This document shows positions 40,441 to 64,000 of a DNA stretch of 64,000 nucleotides, piece after piece. The stretch is from contig OX424555.1 in assembly GCA_949152475.1 (NCBI GenBank), positions 20,540,868 through 20,604,867 of the forward strand, in the 5' to 3' direction. A program made the position numbers and the translations under genes. Source of the DNA: Terebella lapidaria (taxonomy: Eukaryota; Annelida; Polychaeta; Terebellida; Terebellidae). Position 1 is the first letter of the stretch. Every line of letters begins with the position of its first letter. Below the pieces are notes generated by a model. The model did no database searches, was not told the DNA's origin, and worked only from the letters and a program-made list of their open reading frames with translations.

Positions 40441-41067
40441 CATGACAATATACCAACATAACCTGATGAATGAGATCTTTATATGAGTCTAAAATTTAAC
40501 TATGTGTACAAAACTAACTTTGAACCTATATAAAACTAATTTTGTATTATCAGTCCTGTACGTGTAAACATTCGATGCAATTATTTTGTGTTAATCGACC
40601 AGTATGTTGAGAGTTCCAAAATGGCATATATCAGACGCAGGCACGGTTCGGAAAAACACTTTGTCAGATGAAAGCCACCGTATGTGACACACATTTTTGC
40701 CTGCATTTATCTGATAATAACTGTAACACTCTGAGCGTTGTTTGGTGCGCTTGGAGCAATTAACAACAAGTATATTTACCACTGGTATCTAGGGGGAGTT
40801 TGACGGGCTTAAACGTGAGTATAATCGATATTGTTTTCCTCACGTTCAATAATTTATTACGAGCGAGTCAAACACATTCAGACTGCAGTATGACGTGATG
40901 AGTAGCAATTTTTCGCTTCTCTTGAACGAGAATCATGGTTTTAATCATACCCGAGAAAAGGTTTACATCATAACGTCTCCTCGCGACGCGCGAGATAACC
41001 ATATTAATTATATCCCTTAATACAAAACACAACTTCCAGATAGATAGACACATTTGGTCATCACACG

Positions 41068-42135
41068 ATGTCTGGAGAGGAGACTGTGTTGGTAACAGGT
41101 GCTGCAGGCTTCATTGCCACCCATATAGTGCAGCAACTCCAGGAGAAGGGCTACAGAGTACGTGGATCTGTCCGCTCCTTGGATAATGAAGCCAAGACAA
41201 AGGCGATCAAGGAACTCTGTCCTGACGCTAAGTACCCAATCGAATTGTTTGAGGCTGACCTATCAAAGCCTACTGGATGGGAAGAGGCAGTCTCAGGATG
41301 CAAGTTTGTCATTCACACTGCGAGTCCATTGCCAGCCAAGAACCCGGGAAATGCAGACGAGGTCATTCGACCAGCAGTTGATGGCACACTGCACGTCTTG
41401 AAAGCTTGCCGTGCGACTGGTGGTGTTCGACGCGTGGTTCTCACAAGCTCAGTTGCAGCCATCTGTAATCAAACAGTAACTGGAACTTACAATGAGAAGG
41501 ATTGGACGGATGTTGACAAAACCGAAACGCCATATTATAAGAGCAAAACGCTTGCTGAGAAAGCGGCTTGGGATTTCATTGCAAAACTCCCAGAAGAAGA
41601 GAAGTTCGAGCTGGCTGTTGTGAATCCTGGTCTGGTCATTGGACCTGTCCTGTGCGGAGGTAACCCGACGGTCTTGGAGATTCCACGCAGAATCCTCCAG
41701 AAAGAGTTGCCAATAGTGGCACCACTCAACTTCTTTGTCATTGACGTCAGAGACACGGCAACAGCCCACATCAAGGCCATGACAGTCCCAGAAGCTGCCG
41801 GCAATCGCCACATTCTCGTCTCGAGCAACATATGGATGAAAGAGGTCTGTGCCATCTACGACAAAGAGTTTGGCCCACTTGGCTACAAAGTTCCAAAGAC
41901 AGAGGCTCCGAAATTCATCATGAAAATTGCCTCCTTCTTCGACAAAACTGTGAAGATGATCATGCCACTCATGGGCAAAGTTATAACGTGTGACAGCACA
42001 CGCATGCGTTCAATTTTAAACATTGAGCCTCGTGATATCAAGCAAAGTTTCATAGATATGGCATATAGTATGATCGAACGTGGTTTAGTTAAGAAAACGA
42101 AGAAATATATGGCAGTCAAACAGGTTTCAGAGTAA
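41068..42135 (+). CDS. Extended SDR reductase, DFR/cinnamoyl-CoA-reductase-like, 355 aa, single exon
   Basis: Starts at ATG 41068 and ends at TAA with no intron. The N-terminal Rossmann fold has VLVTGAAGFIA (residues 7-17), HTASP at 83-87 and an Arg at 36 that favours NADPH. The catalytic Ser lies in LTSS (125-128) and the YxxxK pair is Y156/K160 (YYKSK). The length and a variable C-terminal substrate half fit the dihydroflavonol reductase/cinnamoyl-CoA reductase-like group, whose animal members reduce aldehydes or ketones of unknown identity. It is probably cytosolic, since there is no signal peptide or membrane segment. The nearest genes are more than 9 kb away. Lack of introns among intron-rich neighbours could mean retrocopy or transfer, but intronless members of this group occur in invertebrates. 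Substrate not predictable. Confidence 0.9.
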   Translation: MSGEETVLVTGAAGFIATHIVQQLQEKGYRVRGSVRSLDNEAKTKAIKELCPDAKYPIELFEADLSKPTGWEEAVSGCKFVIHTASPLPAKNPGNADEVIRPAVDGTLHVLKACRATGGVRRVVLTSSVAAICNQTVTGTYNEKDWTDVDKTETPYYKSKTLAEKAAWDFIAKLPEEEKFELAVVNPGLVIGPVLCGGNPTVLEIPRRILQKELPIVAPLNFFVIDVRDTATAHIKAMTVPEAAGNRHILVSSNIWMKEVCAIYDKEFGPLGYKVPKTEAPKFIMKIASFFDKTVKMIMPLMGKVITCDSTRMRSILNIEPRDIKQSFIDMAYSMIERGLVKKTKKYMAVKQVSE

Positions 42136-50110: not shown

Positions 50111-51087
50111 TGTCTACCTATCGACTTGAAGCTTCGGCTTCAAGTGAGGTTAGAATAAATTTTATGATATGTATCAATAAATAATTCTCGCACTCCATCG
50201 TTTCCGTCCAATGTTGAGAGGAGTTCCAAGATATTTCGATCTGGCACTCAAGCGAGTAAAATATATAATTTGTTTGCCGTCACAGCTGTTTATTGGCATG
50301 TCGAGCGAGAAAATGCATATGACATTGTATCTGTATATCTATTTCATCACCATCCAGACCTCGCCTAAAGGCTTGGCCTAGATTTGGTGACTGCGTGCTA
50401 GATATGCATATAATCTAGCACTCAAAACAATGCCATATGTATATAATAATCACATACCTCACATACCTACGCACACTCAAACGCAATATATTATTCATAT
50501 CAGAAGATCATATTTGTACACATCAATACATGTCAATTGTCAATACAGAATTTCACATCTCAATACTTTATTTCATTTTTAACATATAAATAACGTGAAT
50601 GAATTAAGAATAGATAGGTGGGGTATCTTTACATGTTCTTTAGGGAATCTTTTATTTTACAAAATCAATCGTTCAGGAATTTTTCGGCGCTTTTTCAGAC
50701 GAGTTTTTCATGTTTAATCAAACATAAATCGCCATGTATTTGCGACGAGCGGTTACTGCATGCGCACAAAATTCAGCAGGTGTATGCGTGTATTTATCAC
50801 AATCGTATTAACGGGAGAAATAAGAAAATTCAAACATACAGTTCGATATAATTGTCGTATACCCTAAAGATCGTAATAGGGAATCCAGTCTCGCCACAGT
50901 GATGTATGCAATTGACTCGATCAAAGTTCATCAGTCCAGATATTTGATCAGTGTACTTGTAAGACTGTACATTGTATCGTAATGCACTTTGCATCATAGT
51001 CTGATGTAAAACTACAATTTCAGGTGTGTTATTTTGTGTGATATCATTTGACATGGGTTATAGTGAGGCTACACATATATTTTGATC

Positions 51088-51930
51088 ATGACACAAAAAT
51101 ACGCTACTAGATCATTTGACCGTCCGCACGTGCCTCACACTTTTAGTGAAGATATGATGGTAGAGCGTCATTTTCCTGGCTGGTCATTCGGGGCCTTGTC
51201 TCGAACAGGAAAACCTGGAATCTGGGATATCTACAAGATGTTTCAAATGGATGTACCACTAAAGCAAAGCGAAATTACTTTCATGGCCATGGTCAGGATA
51301 TCTTCTGGTCAGTTCTCTAGAGACTTGTACAGGACGGTTGCACTGAATTGTCCCATGGTCTTCACCCGTCGCTATGGATATATTGGTAACACATCTTACA
51401 GCCTCATTGTGGAATGTCGATCTAAAGAGACTGGAACATTTCTAGGTCGTTTTGAGCGACAAGTCGTACGGATTGATCCCCAAACTCGACGCCCTCTGGC
51501 TTTGCCGGAAGACTTTGCAAAGATTCGAGAAACAGGTCATTTCGCAGTAAAAGGAACATACCCAGACATCAGCGAACGTCCAGCCGACAGAACCAAATAT
51601 CATGTGTATGCAATAAATGTGGCGGCCAGTGATATGGATGTTTTATACCACGTGACTCAAAGCCTCTACCATAAGTTCTGCTCTGACGCTGCCTATGACG
51701 CGGCTGCAGCTGGCTTCCTGAAGAATTTCACCAAGGACATTTGTGAGTACGAGGTGGAGAGCAACATCTCTAAGCACGCAGGAGAATCACGGGCTGGGGA
51801 CCAGCTGGATGTCCTCGTGTGGGAAGATCAGCAGGACAGACTGACACTGCACTTTGAGATCTTGAACAAGGATAGAAGTATTTTTCACAGCACCGTGAAG
51901 TTCTACCCTTTGGTGGAGAGTCGCTTATAG
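51088..51930 (+). CDS. Tandem hotdog-fold protein, acyl-thioesterase-like, 280 aa, single exon
   Basis: The first in-frame ATG is at 51088; the upstream TTG is not needed. There is no intron. Residues about 20-150 form a first, degenerate hotdog domain (HFPGWSFGALSRTGKPGIWDIY ... FLGRFERQVV). Residues about 165-278 form a clearer second one with DMDVLYHVTQSLYHKF, DAAYDAAAAGF, ISKHAGESRAGDQLDV and WEDQQDRLTL, the helix-plus-strand order of acyl-CoA/acyl-ACP thioesterases and 4-HBT-like proteins. Two hotdogs in one chain let it fold as one functional unit. The usual Asp-Gly-His or Asn of active enzymes is only partly met (DMDVLYHV), so activity is uncertain. No targeting signal is obvious. The gene is isolated between repeats, and its substrate is unknown. 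Confidence 0.75.
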   Translation: MTQKYATRSFDRPHVPHTFSEDMMVERHFPGWSFGALSRTGKPGIWDIYKMFQMDVPLKQSEITFMAMVRISSGQFSRDLYRTVALNCPMVFTRRYGYIGNTSYSLIVECRSKETGTFLGRFERQVVRIDPQTRRPLALPEDFAKIRETGHFAVKGTYPDISERPADRTKYHVYAINVAASDMDVLYHVTQSLYHKFCSDAAYDAAAAGFLKNFTKDICEYEVESNISKHAGESRAGDQLDVLVWEDQQDRLTLHFEILNKDRSIFHSTVKFYPLVESRL

Positions 51931-59790: not shown

Positions 59791-60540
59791 ATTTATTGTG
59801 GTTTGTGATTTGTGTGGTTTGTGATATTTTGAGCCTGTTTGGGGTTTGAATGAGGAACAAGACGGTGACTGATAACATCAAGAGTCCTTTAAGATCAGAT
59901 TTTCAAATATTTTCAAATTTGTCGCGTACTACACCATAAGAGAGGTCTTGAGTCCCATGTTTCGGATATTTCTAAATGCCACAACTTCGAAAATGCATGA
60001 AATCACTTGAAACTTTTTTACTTTTATGGGATGACCTGTCAAGTTCAAGTGTCAGGTAAAGGTCATGGAGAAGCTGAAGAAACACATCCTCAGAAATAAC
60101 TCCGTGTAATAGTTAGAGACCATAAGGAAGGGGATGATATCACACGTACATTTGAAAGCTCGAATAGCCATTTTCGTGGGTTTTTTTTATTTTTATTTTC
60201 GGTCAGTAACAAAAAGAAAAAGTCTATATCGAGCACTATCTAGTATAGTGACTAGATCAGACTAGTGTGGCAGGGTATGCAATCTCTGATTTTCTTTTTG
60301 GATATGCAATGGTGCAACAGAGATGAAACAAAACATGCTAGCATTAGGTTTAATAGGTGTGTGTGGCAAGAGTGAGAACATGTGTTTATCTTTCAACAGT
60401 GAAATTCCGCACAAAAACTGCAATTCCTAATAATTCACACAACTATGAGACAGCTCGGTCAGAGAGCTCGCTCTGAACAGCATAAATATATCTCAGTATT
60501 AGGTAAAACGCTCGGTTCCACCCGAGATCGCCAGTGTCGT

Positions 60541-62725
60541 TTAAGTCATTCTGGTGACGAGGTAGCCGCTAAAGGTGACATCACTGTATGAGTACACGGA
60601 CCCGCCGAAGAGGCCGCGCTCGGGTCGGATCTGGAGAGACACTTGGTCCCCGACAGCCAGCAGCAGGTTGACATGAGCCACGCCGACCGGAAACACACCG
60701 AACGAGGACTGCTCCCGGCGCCCCGTCATCGTAACGTCGTCCTGGTTCTTGAATAAAACTAGCGGCACTGCCCCGTTGCCATTTGCGACCACTGTCACAT
60801 GGAAGCTGTAGACGCCCGCAGTGGGTGCAGTGAAGCGCATCTGGTTGCCGTGGAAGCCTCCCGTGTTCACATCAGTGACAACGGAGGTGATGTCGATGTG
60901 CGCAAAGTCCCTGCTATCCTGTTCGATATCTTGAGCCGTGACCGTGAAGGCGACAGTGTCAGCCCCTTCACAGTCACATTCGCCTGTGAAATGACGATAT
61001 ATTTGTGCACAGTGACAAAATACGACATACCAAACACTTAAAAATCTCCATCCTCTCTCCCTAATCTTCACGAACATTACCTTGGTCTCCTTTTTGGCCT
61101 TTCACTCCAGGGAACCCTGGGAGTCCAGGATAACCTCTGTCGCCTTTCGGAAGATCATCTGCACGAGATCAAACATACCCATAAACTATCAAACATTTTG
61201 AGTAATGTTGATGTTTACTTCACATGCAATTAAGGACCTACTAGTTCATGAAGCATACTCTACCTGGGTCAATCCAGGCGGCGTCTCCTTTCGGTCCCCG
61301 TAGTCCAGGCAGGCCAGGGCGTCCTGGCTCCCCTTTGATGCCAAACCCCGGCTCACCCTTTGCTCCCGGTAGCCCGTCCAATCCCGGCATTCCGTCTACG
61401 CCTGCAGGCCCGACATTGCCCTTAACACCTGGCCAACCGGCGTGGCCCTTCGGCCCCTGGGGACCTGCGGGACCTGGGGGTCCAGGGGGGCCTTGGGGTC
61501 CGGGACGCCACGTGGGGACCACAGAGGTGGTCTCTGGTGCTGTCGTAGTTGTTGTCGTAGTTGGAGGCGGTAGTGTTACGGGGTTTAGAGCTGTGCAGAG
61601 GTATGTGTTGTAAAATCGTGATAGTCTATGTATGTTATATTAACAGAATGTCTAGGCTTTGTTAATAAGAAGTGCTATTCATAGTAATGGCTACGAAAAG
61701 AGGATAATAAAAGATCATTTTTGTAACAGTGAGCTACAGTTCTAGAGAAGCTTTTTTAATTACTTCAATGACTTCAATGACTTATGACTGACTGACTGCC
61801 TATATCTTACACAAAGCATTTCATACAATTTCACGAAGAGATAAAACCATAATACATTTGTGAACCTAGCCCTCACGTCGCAGGTTGATGTTGCACTCTG
61901 ACGTGACGCAGCAGTAGCGGCACGTGTTGCCGGTACACTGATACACGTTCGGATTCTCGCAGTCACGTGGCCGGATACAGCGTTTGGTGATTCTCGTGCG
62001 GGCGCCGTGTCCGTGACTATTGCCGCCGTACGTCCGCACCTCGACGTCACAAGCCTACACGGCCCCAAAGCCCGTATATATGTATACACGAGTATTCTTA
62101 CATAATTTAATTACTGAATGTCAATAGCCAATAGTTATATTGACAGTATATCTATTTATTTATATTTGAAAACTTGGTATTGGACATTTTTCTGAGTGAA
62201 CTTATGCGATCTCGAGAATTGCAGTGTGTTCTGGCCTCGCTAGTGGCCATCTCCAACCTAGAAATCGTGGAATGCGGTTCCGAACCGCTACATTTCCTGA
62301 GAACGCATAAGTTAGCTGCTTATGTGACTGCTGTGTAAAACCTGTACTAGCATCGATCTGTCCCACACTCTACCATTTTCGAGCTGTCGCACTCGTCCGG
62401 GTCCCAGTAGTTACAGGCGCCGTTAGACTGGGCATTCCGGCAGGTGTAACAGTTGAAATCTGAGCCGCCCCACCACCACCCATCCTCATCCATACCCGTC
62501 GAGTCGAACCCTGGATACAGGCAACAATATGAGGAACGGGATACTGCGTATCGGAATACATTGAGGTCGGTTTAGGAAGGGCGAACAAAGTTATATTGAT
62601 ACAATGTGATTGAGTAACTTTGCACACAGTCATAAATCCAAGAGAATTACGTCACAATTACCCATTGCCAGACCAACGGCTGAGAACAACAGCAACGCCA
62701 CCTGCCGGTAAAGACAGCGTTTCAT
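60541..62725 (-). CDS. Secreted Ly6/uPAR - collagen - C1q protein, 6 exons, 408 aa
   Basis: Exons on the minus strand: 62725-62662, 62510-62374, 62054-61877, 61590-61264, 61158-61081, 60983-60541. All junctions are GT-AG, the phases match (1,0,1,1,1), and TAA ends the frame. Residues 1-21 are a signal peptide. Residues 22-126 form a three-finger Ly6/uPAR domain: [15 protein letters not shown] opens it, TKRC sits in the middle, and [11 protein letters not shown] closes it, with 12 Cys in all. A Thr-rich linker (127-156) follows. Collagen Gly-X-Y runs from 157 to about 262, with breaks at GFGIK and at AWIDPDLPK where two exons meet. After ECDCEGAD comes a C1q domain ([13 protein letters not shown] ... 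TFSGYLV). It should trimerise through collagen and C1q and act outside the cell, plausibly as a recognition protein displaying three-finger heads. The collagen-C1q half is a common innate-immunity design; I know of no described protein with a Ly6 head on it. Confidence 0.9.
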
Positions 62726-62797
62726 GCATATCGACTATTAAATGCACATGGTTTTGGACAATGTACCCAAGGGAGGTTAGGAATTGGAATATATTCA

Positions 62798-62804
62798 CTT
62801 TATA
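62798..62804 (-). promoter_or_regulatory. Candidate TATA box, Ly6-collagen-C1q gene
   Basis: TATAAAG on the minus strand, 73 bp before the ATG, at a spacing that allows a short 5' UTR. Confidence 0.4.
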
Positions 62805-62809
62805 ATATA

Positions 62810-64000
62810 CAATCATTATCACTGAAGCGTTTTTTTATAAAGATAAAACATTGCCTAGACAAATTATTATTCAATCTCATTGAATTCTAAGACTCACCCA
62901 CAACTGCATGATGACGGCACCGGAATCCTCTCGCAAAAAACAATATGCACACAAATCGAGTGTATAAATCGGGCCTGGACACTGGAGACGGATGTTCGTG
63001 AAACTACCATGACATTTAGCTGGACTACATGAAAATAACACGTTTTTCTATTGGTTATAAAAATTAGACCTTTAATCAATAATATATGCCATGTATTTCG
63101 CCTGCCAAACAGAAAACAAATCTTCAAAGTTAATGGGTATTTCGGAGAAGTGAGTTGATATGGAATCGGTCTCGGACACAGCTCATAATCATGTTGGACA
63201 CTAGAGCATAGTGTGTTAATTACAGGCAATTATCACACAACTACATATATGTCCTATGTAAAACCACACAAACATGAAAATTGGTACAGCAAGCAATTTG
63301 AATCATACGACTGTACTCGTTTACATCGATATTTGCTAATATTTTCGCGATGCTAAATGGTATCGGATTAAAACTTGAGATACATCACAATCATGTGATC
63401 AAATGGTAATTTTCTACCAAATCTCAGAGCCCTATTGCAAAAACCGAAAAAAAAAAAGGGCAATCAAACCCAATGTCATACATTGAATTTCTGGGTCCGC
63501 ACACGACCAAATCGTTATGCAAACTAACGGAAATATTTTTAGTGATTGTTTCCATCTGGTAGTTGAGACCAATATTTTTAAAACATGTGCTGCGATAATA
63601 GCTGGACCGGACAAACACATCCACCCATGGGTCGTTTTTATCGTATTTGAATATGTCGCCTCCTGGTGGAGGCGACAAGGCCCTATAGATAGCACCCACT
63701 AGCAGTCGAACATGTACGGGGTCCCTTGCACTCCTCCCGCACGCCACGGGTCCTCCATAATATTCATTTTTTTCAGCTACCACTGAGCTAATGACTACTG
63801 GTTGACGCTGTCCCTCCCAGAACGACCCATTGATGGCGAGTTCTATCTCCTTGGTTTTGTCTAGTTACTCTGGAAACTGGATATGTCAAGACAATCATTT
63901 TCTCTCCATTATTTTCATGCTCAGTTTATTGCGTAATTGTCATCGAAATGTGCATATTCAAAATATATTCCAAACATTCCCAAGATGTACTTTCGACTAA
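62810..64000. other. Upstream flank, no gene; possible SINE-like segment
   Basis: The minus-strand frames at 62894-63229 and 63424-63783 have no family motif. The second includes a perfect hairpin, GTCGCCTCC/GGAGGCGAC (63656-63677). It also includes a tRNA-like pair, TAGCTCAGTGGTAG (about 63778-63791) and GTTCGACTGC (about 63701-63710), on the same strand. Confidence 0.4.

Follow-up and report, generated by a model that had tools for sequence, protein, structure and literature searches.

A Terebella lapidaria gene that appears to join a Ly6/uPAR domain to collagen and C1q, and its two paralogues

The locus described here raises the question of whether a Ly6/uPAR (LU) three-finger domain and a collagen-C1q region that share one strand of Terebella lapidaria DNA belong to a single secreted protein or to two adjacent genes, and what such a protein might do. 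LU domains are common. Collagen-containing C1q proteins have also been reported, as far back as annelids (PMC11312191). We examined the window, a stretch of 64,000 nucleotides, together with the assembly from which it derives.

Exon structure and domain content

Six exons on the minus strand (62725-60541) were joined from the sequence into a 408-aa frame whose lone stop lies at its end (Table 1). All five introns were of the GT-AG type; introns 1, 3, 4, and 5 were in phase 1, and intron 2, positioned inside the Ly6 domain just before Cys5, was in phase 0. The predicted product consists, in order, of a signal peptide, the LU domain, a Thr/Pro linker, interrupted collagen, a CDC motif, and the C1q domain that precedes the stop. 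The initial annotation had proposed this architecture, and the six exons were indeed found within the span it gave, on the minus strand and in consistent phases, with the two junctions it named (62054/62374 and 61877/61590) correct. When 62511-64000 was scanned heuristically for signal exons, exon 1 scored highest, level with a version of itself that uses another donor. Exon 3 was found to encode a short Gly/His run between Cys5 and Cys6 as well as an additional Cys pair ahead of the CC. A stop inside the Ly6 domain was considered and rejected: exon 2 meets a TAG if read beyond 62374, but the GTAGAG donor at 62374 removes this TAG, and both paralogues (see below) use the same junction.

Table 1. 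Features of the LU-collagen-C1q gene and its 3′ flank (positions in the window)
Feature	Position	Strand	Basis
Exon 1: translation start and signal peptide (21 codons plus 1 base), phase-1 donor	62662..62725	-	Best of six candidates in heuristic signal-exon scan
Exon 2: first Ly6/uPAR part, Cys1-Cys4	62374..62510	-	Pfam; paralogous exons at C13 and C11 loci
Exon 3: remaining Ly6/uPAR part, Cys5 to CCxxxxCN	61877..62054	-	Pfam; LU profile
Exon 4: Thr/Pro linker, then the bulk of the collagen (18 and 6 triplets, briefly interrupted at GFGIK)	61264..61590	-	Pfam; triplet count
Exon 5: further collagen beyond a 10-residue interruption, 8 triplets including the first triplet of exon 6	61081..61158	-	
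Exon 6: CDC motif, C1q domain, stop codon	60541..60983	-	Pfam; C1q comparisons; Foldseek
Two adjacent AATAAA-type poly(A)-signal-like motifs (60186 and 60192), about 350 bp past the stop	60186..60197	-	Motif match only

A Pfam search of the joined protein bore out the proposed domain order, with three-finger, Collagen, and C1q matches in succession. The Collagen (3.5e-15, 56 bits) and C1q (1.6e-10, 41.7 bits) matches were above their cut-offs of 27.2 and 23.7 bits, respectively. For the three-finger region, Toxin_TOLIP was matched at 4.9e-4 with 21.2 bits, a score equal to its cut-off of 21.2 as printed, and UPAR_LY6_2 (LYPD6) was matched at 3.4e-6 with a score below its cut-off of 31.5 bits. 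The collagen part amounted to 18, 6, and 8 Gly-X-Y triplets, followed by the C-terminal C1q domain. Among the solved structures closest to this C1q domain were those of adiponectin, cerebellin-1, C1q, and collagen VIII chains. A single-sequence structure model of exon 6 alone was of low confidence (mean pLDDT of 51.9); a Foldseek search with this model nevertheless gave the C1q domains of cerebellin, collagen VIII, and adiponectin high ranks, interspersed with a few beta proteins of no relation. The window protein thus resembles the C1q chains, adiponectin/CTRP, collagen VIII/X, and collagen-type C1qDC proteins in its signal peptide, interrupted Gly-X-Y region, and C-terminal C1q domain, and differs from them in the extra LU domain that precedes the collagen. 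Beside these proteins, it carries the CDC motif at the collagen/C1q border; this motif was compared among the window gene and its paralogues alone, and was present in all three.

Two paralogues and the choice between one gene and two

The same assembly as the window (761.6 Mb in 438 contigs) was searched, and two paralogues were found through their Ly6 exons and then modeled on other chromosomes, at C13:3.451-3.459 Mb and C11:39.388-39.391 Mb. In both, exons 2 to 6 had the order and junction phases (1, 0, 1, 1, 1) of the window gene, which backs the earlier proposal that Ly6, collagen, and C1q are fused in one protein. Collagen and C1q scored above the Pfam cut-off in both paralogues. Heuristic scans for the signal exons of the two paralogues gave nothing convincing, and thus the secretion of both and the 5′ ends of their genes are only putative. 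Identity to the window gene was 51 of 83 positions in the LU domain and 130 of 143 in C1q for C13, compared with 33 of 76 and 66 of 136, respectively, for C11; a second alignment of C1q with its own end points gave 90% for C13 and 48% for C11.

The paralogues were also compared at the codon level. Over the aligned codons, dN/dS was 0.29 between the window gene and C13, with domain averages of 0.23 (LU), 0.33 (collagen), and 0.12 (C1q). For the window gene and C11, the ratio was 0.25 overall, 0.55 in LU, 0.35 in C1q, and undefined in collagen, at a dS of about 2.1; the C11 ratios weigh less because synonymous sites are near saturation. The synonymous difference between the window gene and C13 varied along the gene, at 0.82, 0.54, 0.23, 0.66, and 0.30 for exons 2 to 6, and the difference between exons 2 + 3 and exons 4 + 6 reached a Fisher P-value of about 6e-7 when calculated from rounded Nei-Gojobori counts. 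A single block of gene conversion covering the 3′ half of the two genes was rejected, since exon 5 (0.66) interrupts it.

The C13 paralogue had features of its own. Leaving out the signal exon, its first 120 residues include 16 His, with HG runs located N-terminally and between Cys5 and Cys6; the corresponding region has 2 His in the window gene and 3 in C11. These Gly-His runs (L029 8286-8407 and 3343-3550) may reflect metal binding or simple-repeat growth. Most of its intron 2 consists of a minisatellite in which a 79-bp unit is repeated about 49 times (C13:3454975-3458842; L029 4475-8342). Each unit includes the end of exon 2 on the 3′ side and its splice donor, so that an exon edge has seeded this tandem array.

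A tandem duplication of 3.6 kb and about 96% identity was observed that extends beyond the end of the window (C1:20602779-20606397 and 20607658-20611336; L031 779-4397 and 5658-9336). The duplication copied the upstream region, exons 1 and 2, and part of exon 3, with none of the collagen-C1q part, and the copy is best described as a broken fragment because its exon 3 is truncated and frame-shifted.

This copying of the Ly6 end without collagen-C1q would be in keeping with two adjacent genes, one a small secreted Ly6 gene (exons 1 to 3) and the other a separate collagen-C1q gene (exons 4 to 6), as would the smaller synonymous difference of exons 4 and 6 relative to exons 2 and 3 between paralogues. 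Several observations argue the other way: (i) no in-frame stop follows the Ly6 domain before the matching phase-1 splice pair; (ii) reading backward from exon 4, an in-frame stop comes before any ATG; (iii) a heuristic scan of 61591-62373 found no signal-type exon in that interval; and (iv) the same linkage is present at three loci on three chromosomes. The two-gene reading is considered very unlikely because the two parts would have to lie side by side, with fitting phases, at each of the three loci. We thus take the six exons to form a single gene; the fusion is confirmed at the sequence level, and the unusual domain combination looks real. Chance joining of unrelated exons was rejected as very unlikely in view of the two paralogues with the same order and phases, and the low dN/dS values of all three regions, LU, collagen, and C1q (each well under 1, window versus C13), also stand against it.

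The LU head, its likely origin, and the size of the family

LU domains are defined as having about 60 to 90 residues, 10 conserved Cys, and an Asn after Cys10 (PMC6600238). All three paralogues had the 10 canonical Cys and the final CN, with LU domains of 80 to 96 residues as cut; the total Cys count was 12 in the window gene and C13, and the canonical 10 in C11. When the three LU heads were combined into a profile for comparison with solved structures, the matches were LYPD6B (6zso, 9.7e-7) and LYPD6 (6ib6, 1.6e-4; 6gbi, 2.1e-4), which spanned nearly the full LU domain; the sole other match was to complement receptor 1 (E = 1). With LYPD6 and LYPD6B the domain shares a start of the type FxCxTCxNAxxNxxCNxW and a C-x2-CC-x4-CN end. 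LYPD6 has an additional disulfide in loop 3 (PMC6600238), and the two extra Cys of the window gene and C13 resemble it in this respect, though their pairing is putative; C11 differs in having no extra pair. LYPD6 has been reported as a GPI-tethered LU-domain protein (PMC8494132, PMC5017906), whereas no GPI-like tail was found in the window gene, whose frame runs on into collagen and C1q. A further difference is that none of the three heads reached the Pfam LYPD6 cut-off, with 27.6 bits for the window gene, 31.4 for C13, and 18.3, a poor fit, for C11. By Toxin_TOLIP, C11 was above the cut-off (25.1 bits) and C13 below it (17.7 bits).

The window gene displays the LU-gene layout of a signal exon followed by two LU exons with phase-1 flanks. 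Its internal intron differs, being in phase 0 just before Cys5, while the intron described in the LU review lies at the tip of loop 2 (PMC6600238). Other LU genes of the assembly were also compared. On C15, six LYPD6-type domains were found, each within one open frame and scoring 71 to 80 bits. On C6, Ly6 genes were split over at least two exons, with the last piece bearing a hydrophobic GPI-like tail at five of the nine loci scanned, and no collagen was seen in the scanned gene pieces. A candidate read in part on C1 (C1:21575074-21576962; L023 1214-3102), about 1 Mb from the window gene, consisted of a two-exon LU module after which come EGF exons rather than collagen-C1q. The LU module of this candidate had the phase-0 internal intron before Cys5 and the phase-1 flanks of the window gene; the shared intron is the main link between the two because their sequence similarity is weak (E of 0.35 in one search and 0.76 in another). 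Three further loci matched the EGF-linked LU (C1:21.60, C1:21.61, and C7:4.77 Mb).

Exon shuffling is suggested by the phase-1 flanks of the LU module and by the occurrence of an LU with the same internal intron ahead of EGF exons. On this evidence, the architecture may have arisen when a phase 1-1 pair of LU exons was inserted upstream of collagen-C1q exons, prior to the divergence of the three paralogues, and the loci argue that the LU domain did move in this lineage. GPIHBP1, SP-10, and the TGF-beta-family receptors are not known to carry collagen or C1q. What these proteins have in common with the window protein is an LU domain set within a non-homologous protein environment (PMC6600238).

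A genome search that used the C1q domain of the window gene as query returned only this gene, C13, and C11 at E < 0.1, with the next match at E = 0.22, while the Pfam C1q model gave 55 domain matches; the LU-fused genes therefore look like a small, distinct group. No fourth LU-collagen-C1q member was detected when the genome was searched with the window Ly6, C11 Ly6, and window C1q sequences, a search that could miss a strongly diverged LU. In addition, 20 genomic stretches, of which 18 hold at least one C1q match and which together contain 23 of the 55 matches whole and 2 in part, were probed for Ly6 by tblastn with the window protein. Ly6 matches were obtained in three: C13, C11, and the stretch that holds the 5′ part of the window gene itself together with the broken copy. 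The check for Ly6 upstream of C1q thus covered the matches within these 20 stretches and the window's own. In a genome search with PF00021, the window, C13, and C11 loci were not among the matches listed. Separately, clusters of uninterrupted frames of about 400 to 450 aa, most with two or three C1q matches, were noted at C4:21.557-21.611 Mb and C4:25.66-25.67 Mb.

A protein with LU, collagen, and C1q domains was not found described in the open-access literature among the matches listed. The main text of a review on invertebrate C1qDC proteins makes no mention of Ly6 or three-finger domains (PMC10672478), nor does that of a mini-review on annelid immunity mention Ly6 (PMC9756803). Such a protein may well be present in databases without having drawn comment.

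Other features were recorded along the way. The plus strand of the window has (i) a 363-aa intronless open frame of the NAD-dependent epimerase/3-beta-HSD type (41044-42132); (ii) a THAP-domain frame (2256-2561); and (iii) a 287-aa open frame with no Pfam match at 0.001 (51067-51927). At a mitochondrial contig locus, cox1 contained 11 in-frame TGA codons, and its AGA codons fall at what we take to be Ser positions, as in the invertebrate code. Translations read by eye and ARAGORN tRNA calls gave the order nad3, a tRNA with anticodon TCT, nad2, cox1, Asn, cox2, Asp, a short stretch, Tyr, Gly, and cox3, all on one strand, with a Phe call at the locus end on the other; this order matches the annelid ground pattern and, together with the code, suggests an annelid. 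A second COX1-like gene was seen at C417:44633-46450 as a two-piece match in a 703-aa frame with in-frame TGA, perhaps from another organism or a second mitochondrial genome.

Possible roles of the fused protein

The signal peptide, collagen, and C1q domain, together with the lack of a GPI tail, make it reasonable that the product is probably soluble, trimeric or multimeric, and equipped with three-finger heads. Such an architecture is compatible with an immune opsonin, with a ligand that clusters receptors, and with a structural secretion. With moderate confidence, we favor a multivalent bridging ligand: a single-gene secreted trimer with three LYPD6-like LU heads, derived from an LU exon pair inserted before a collagen-C1q gene. 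This reading is ranked first because it needs the least beyond the architecture. In such a molecule, the C1q domain and collagen triplets would assemble three chains, which the CDC motif at the collagen/C1q border could cross-link. By the domain order, three LU heads would be displayed at the N-terminal end; these heads may bind one protein partner and the C1q trimer or the collagen rod a second one, which would cross-link cells or receptors with high avidity.

Other roles can be drawn from better known proteins. By analogy to C1q and MBL, the protein might serve in soluble innate-immune recognition, with the C1q domain and/or LU heads binding microbes and the collagen rod recruiting effector cells or MASP-like proteases. 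The short GFGIK break in the collagen, which we take to resemble the MBL kink, is consistent with this role, as are the reported annelid roots of collagen-containing C1q (PMC11312191), the abundance described for C1qDC proteins in many invertebrates (PMC10672478), and the recognition of microbial patterns described for bivalve C1qDC proteins (PMC6835236). However, the C1q search found only three genes and no large expansion, and dN/dS was below 1 in C1q and LU as domain averages; we hold the immune role to be possible, if tentatively so. A synaptic or Wnt organizer, in which a cerebellin/C1ql-like trimer would use LYPD6-like heads to cluster nicotinic-type receptors or an LRP-type co-receptor, is suggested by analogy to the nearest solved relatives of the two domains, LYPD6B and LYPD6 for LU and cerebellin-1 among those for C1q. 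LYPD6 itself is reported to act on nicotinic receptors and Wnt/LRP6 (PMC8494132, PMC5017906, PMC6600238). Likeness of an LU head does not transfer its binding partners, however, and the true LYPD6 roles may lie with the six C15 domains, because these match the LYPD6 profile far better; an organizer role is accordingly doubtful.

A structural protein of matrix, tube, or mucus was weighed as well, in which Cys-cross-linked collagen-C1q trimers would gain metal-dependent cohesion from LU heads and His-rich loops. The His content and HG runs of C13 fit this idea, and a Mytilus C1qDC protein is reported to stiffen the byssus (PMC10672478), but the scarcity of His in the window gene and C11, and the chance that the runs are simple-repeat growth, make such a role improbable.

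Beyond the favored bridging ligand, a bolder proposal, which we regard as on the unlikely side, would make the LU domain a truly mobile phase 1-1 module, rather than just a "proto-module," that was placed before both collagen-C1q and EGF; the collagen-C1q version would then represent a new class of secreted ligand, with three LYPD6-like heads on a collagen stalk that cluster a cell-surface receptor. The three LU-collagen-C1q paralogues and the LU-EGF candidate would be concrete counter-examples, and would make the mobility of LU testable across annelid genomes. If trimeric, the protein would also be a natural scaffold that presents three-finger heads in threes, which makes it interesting as a format for binders based on avidity.
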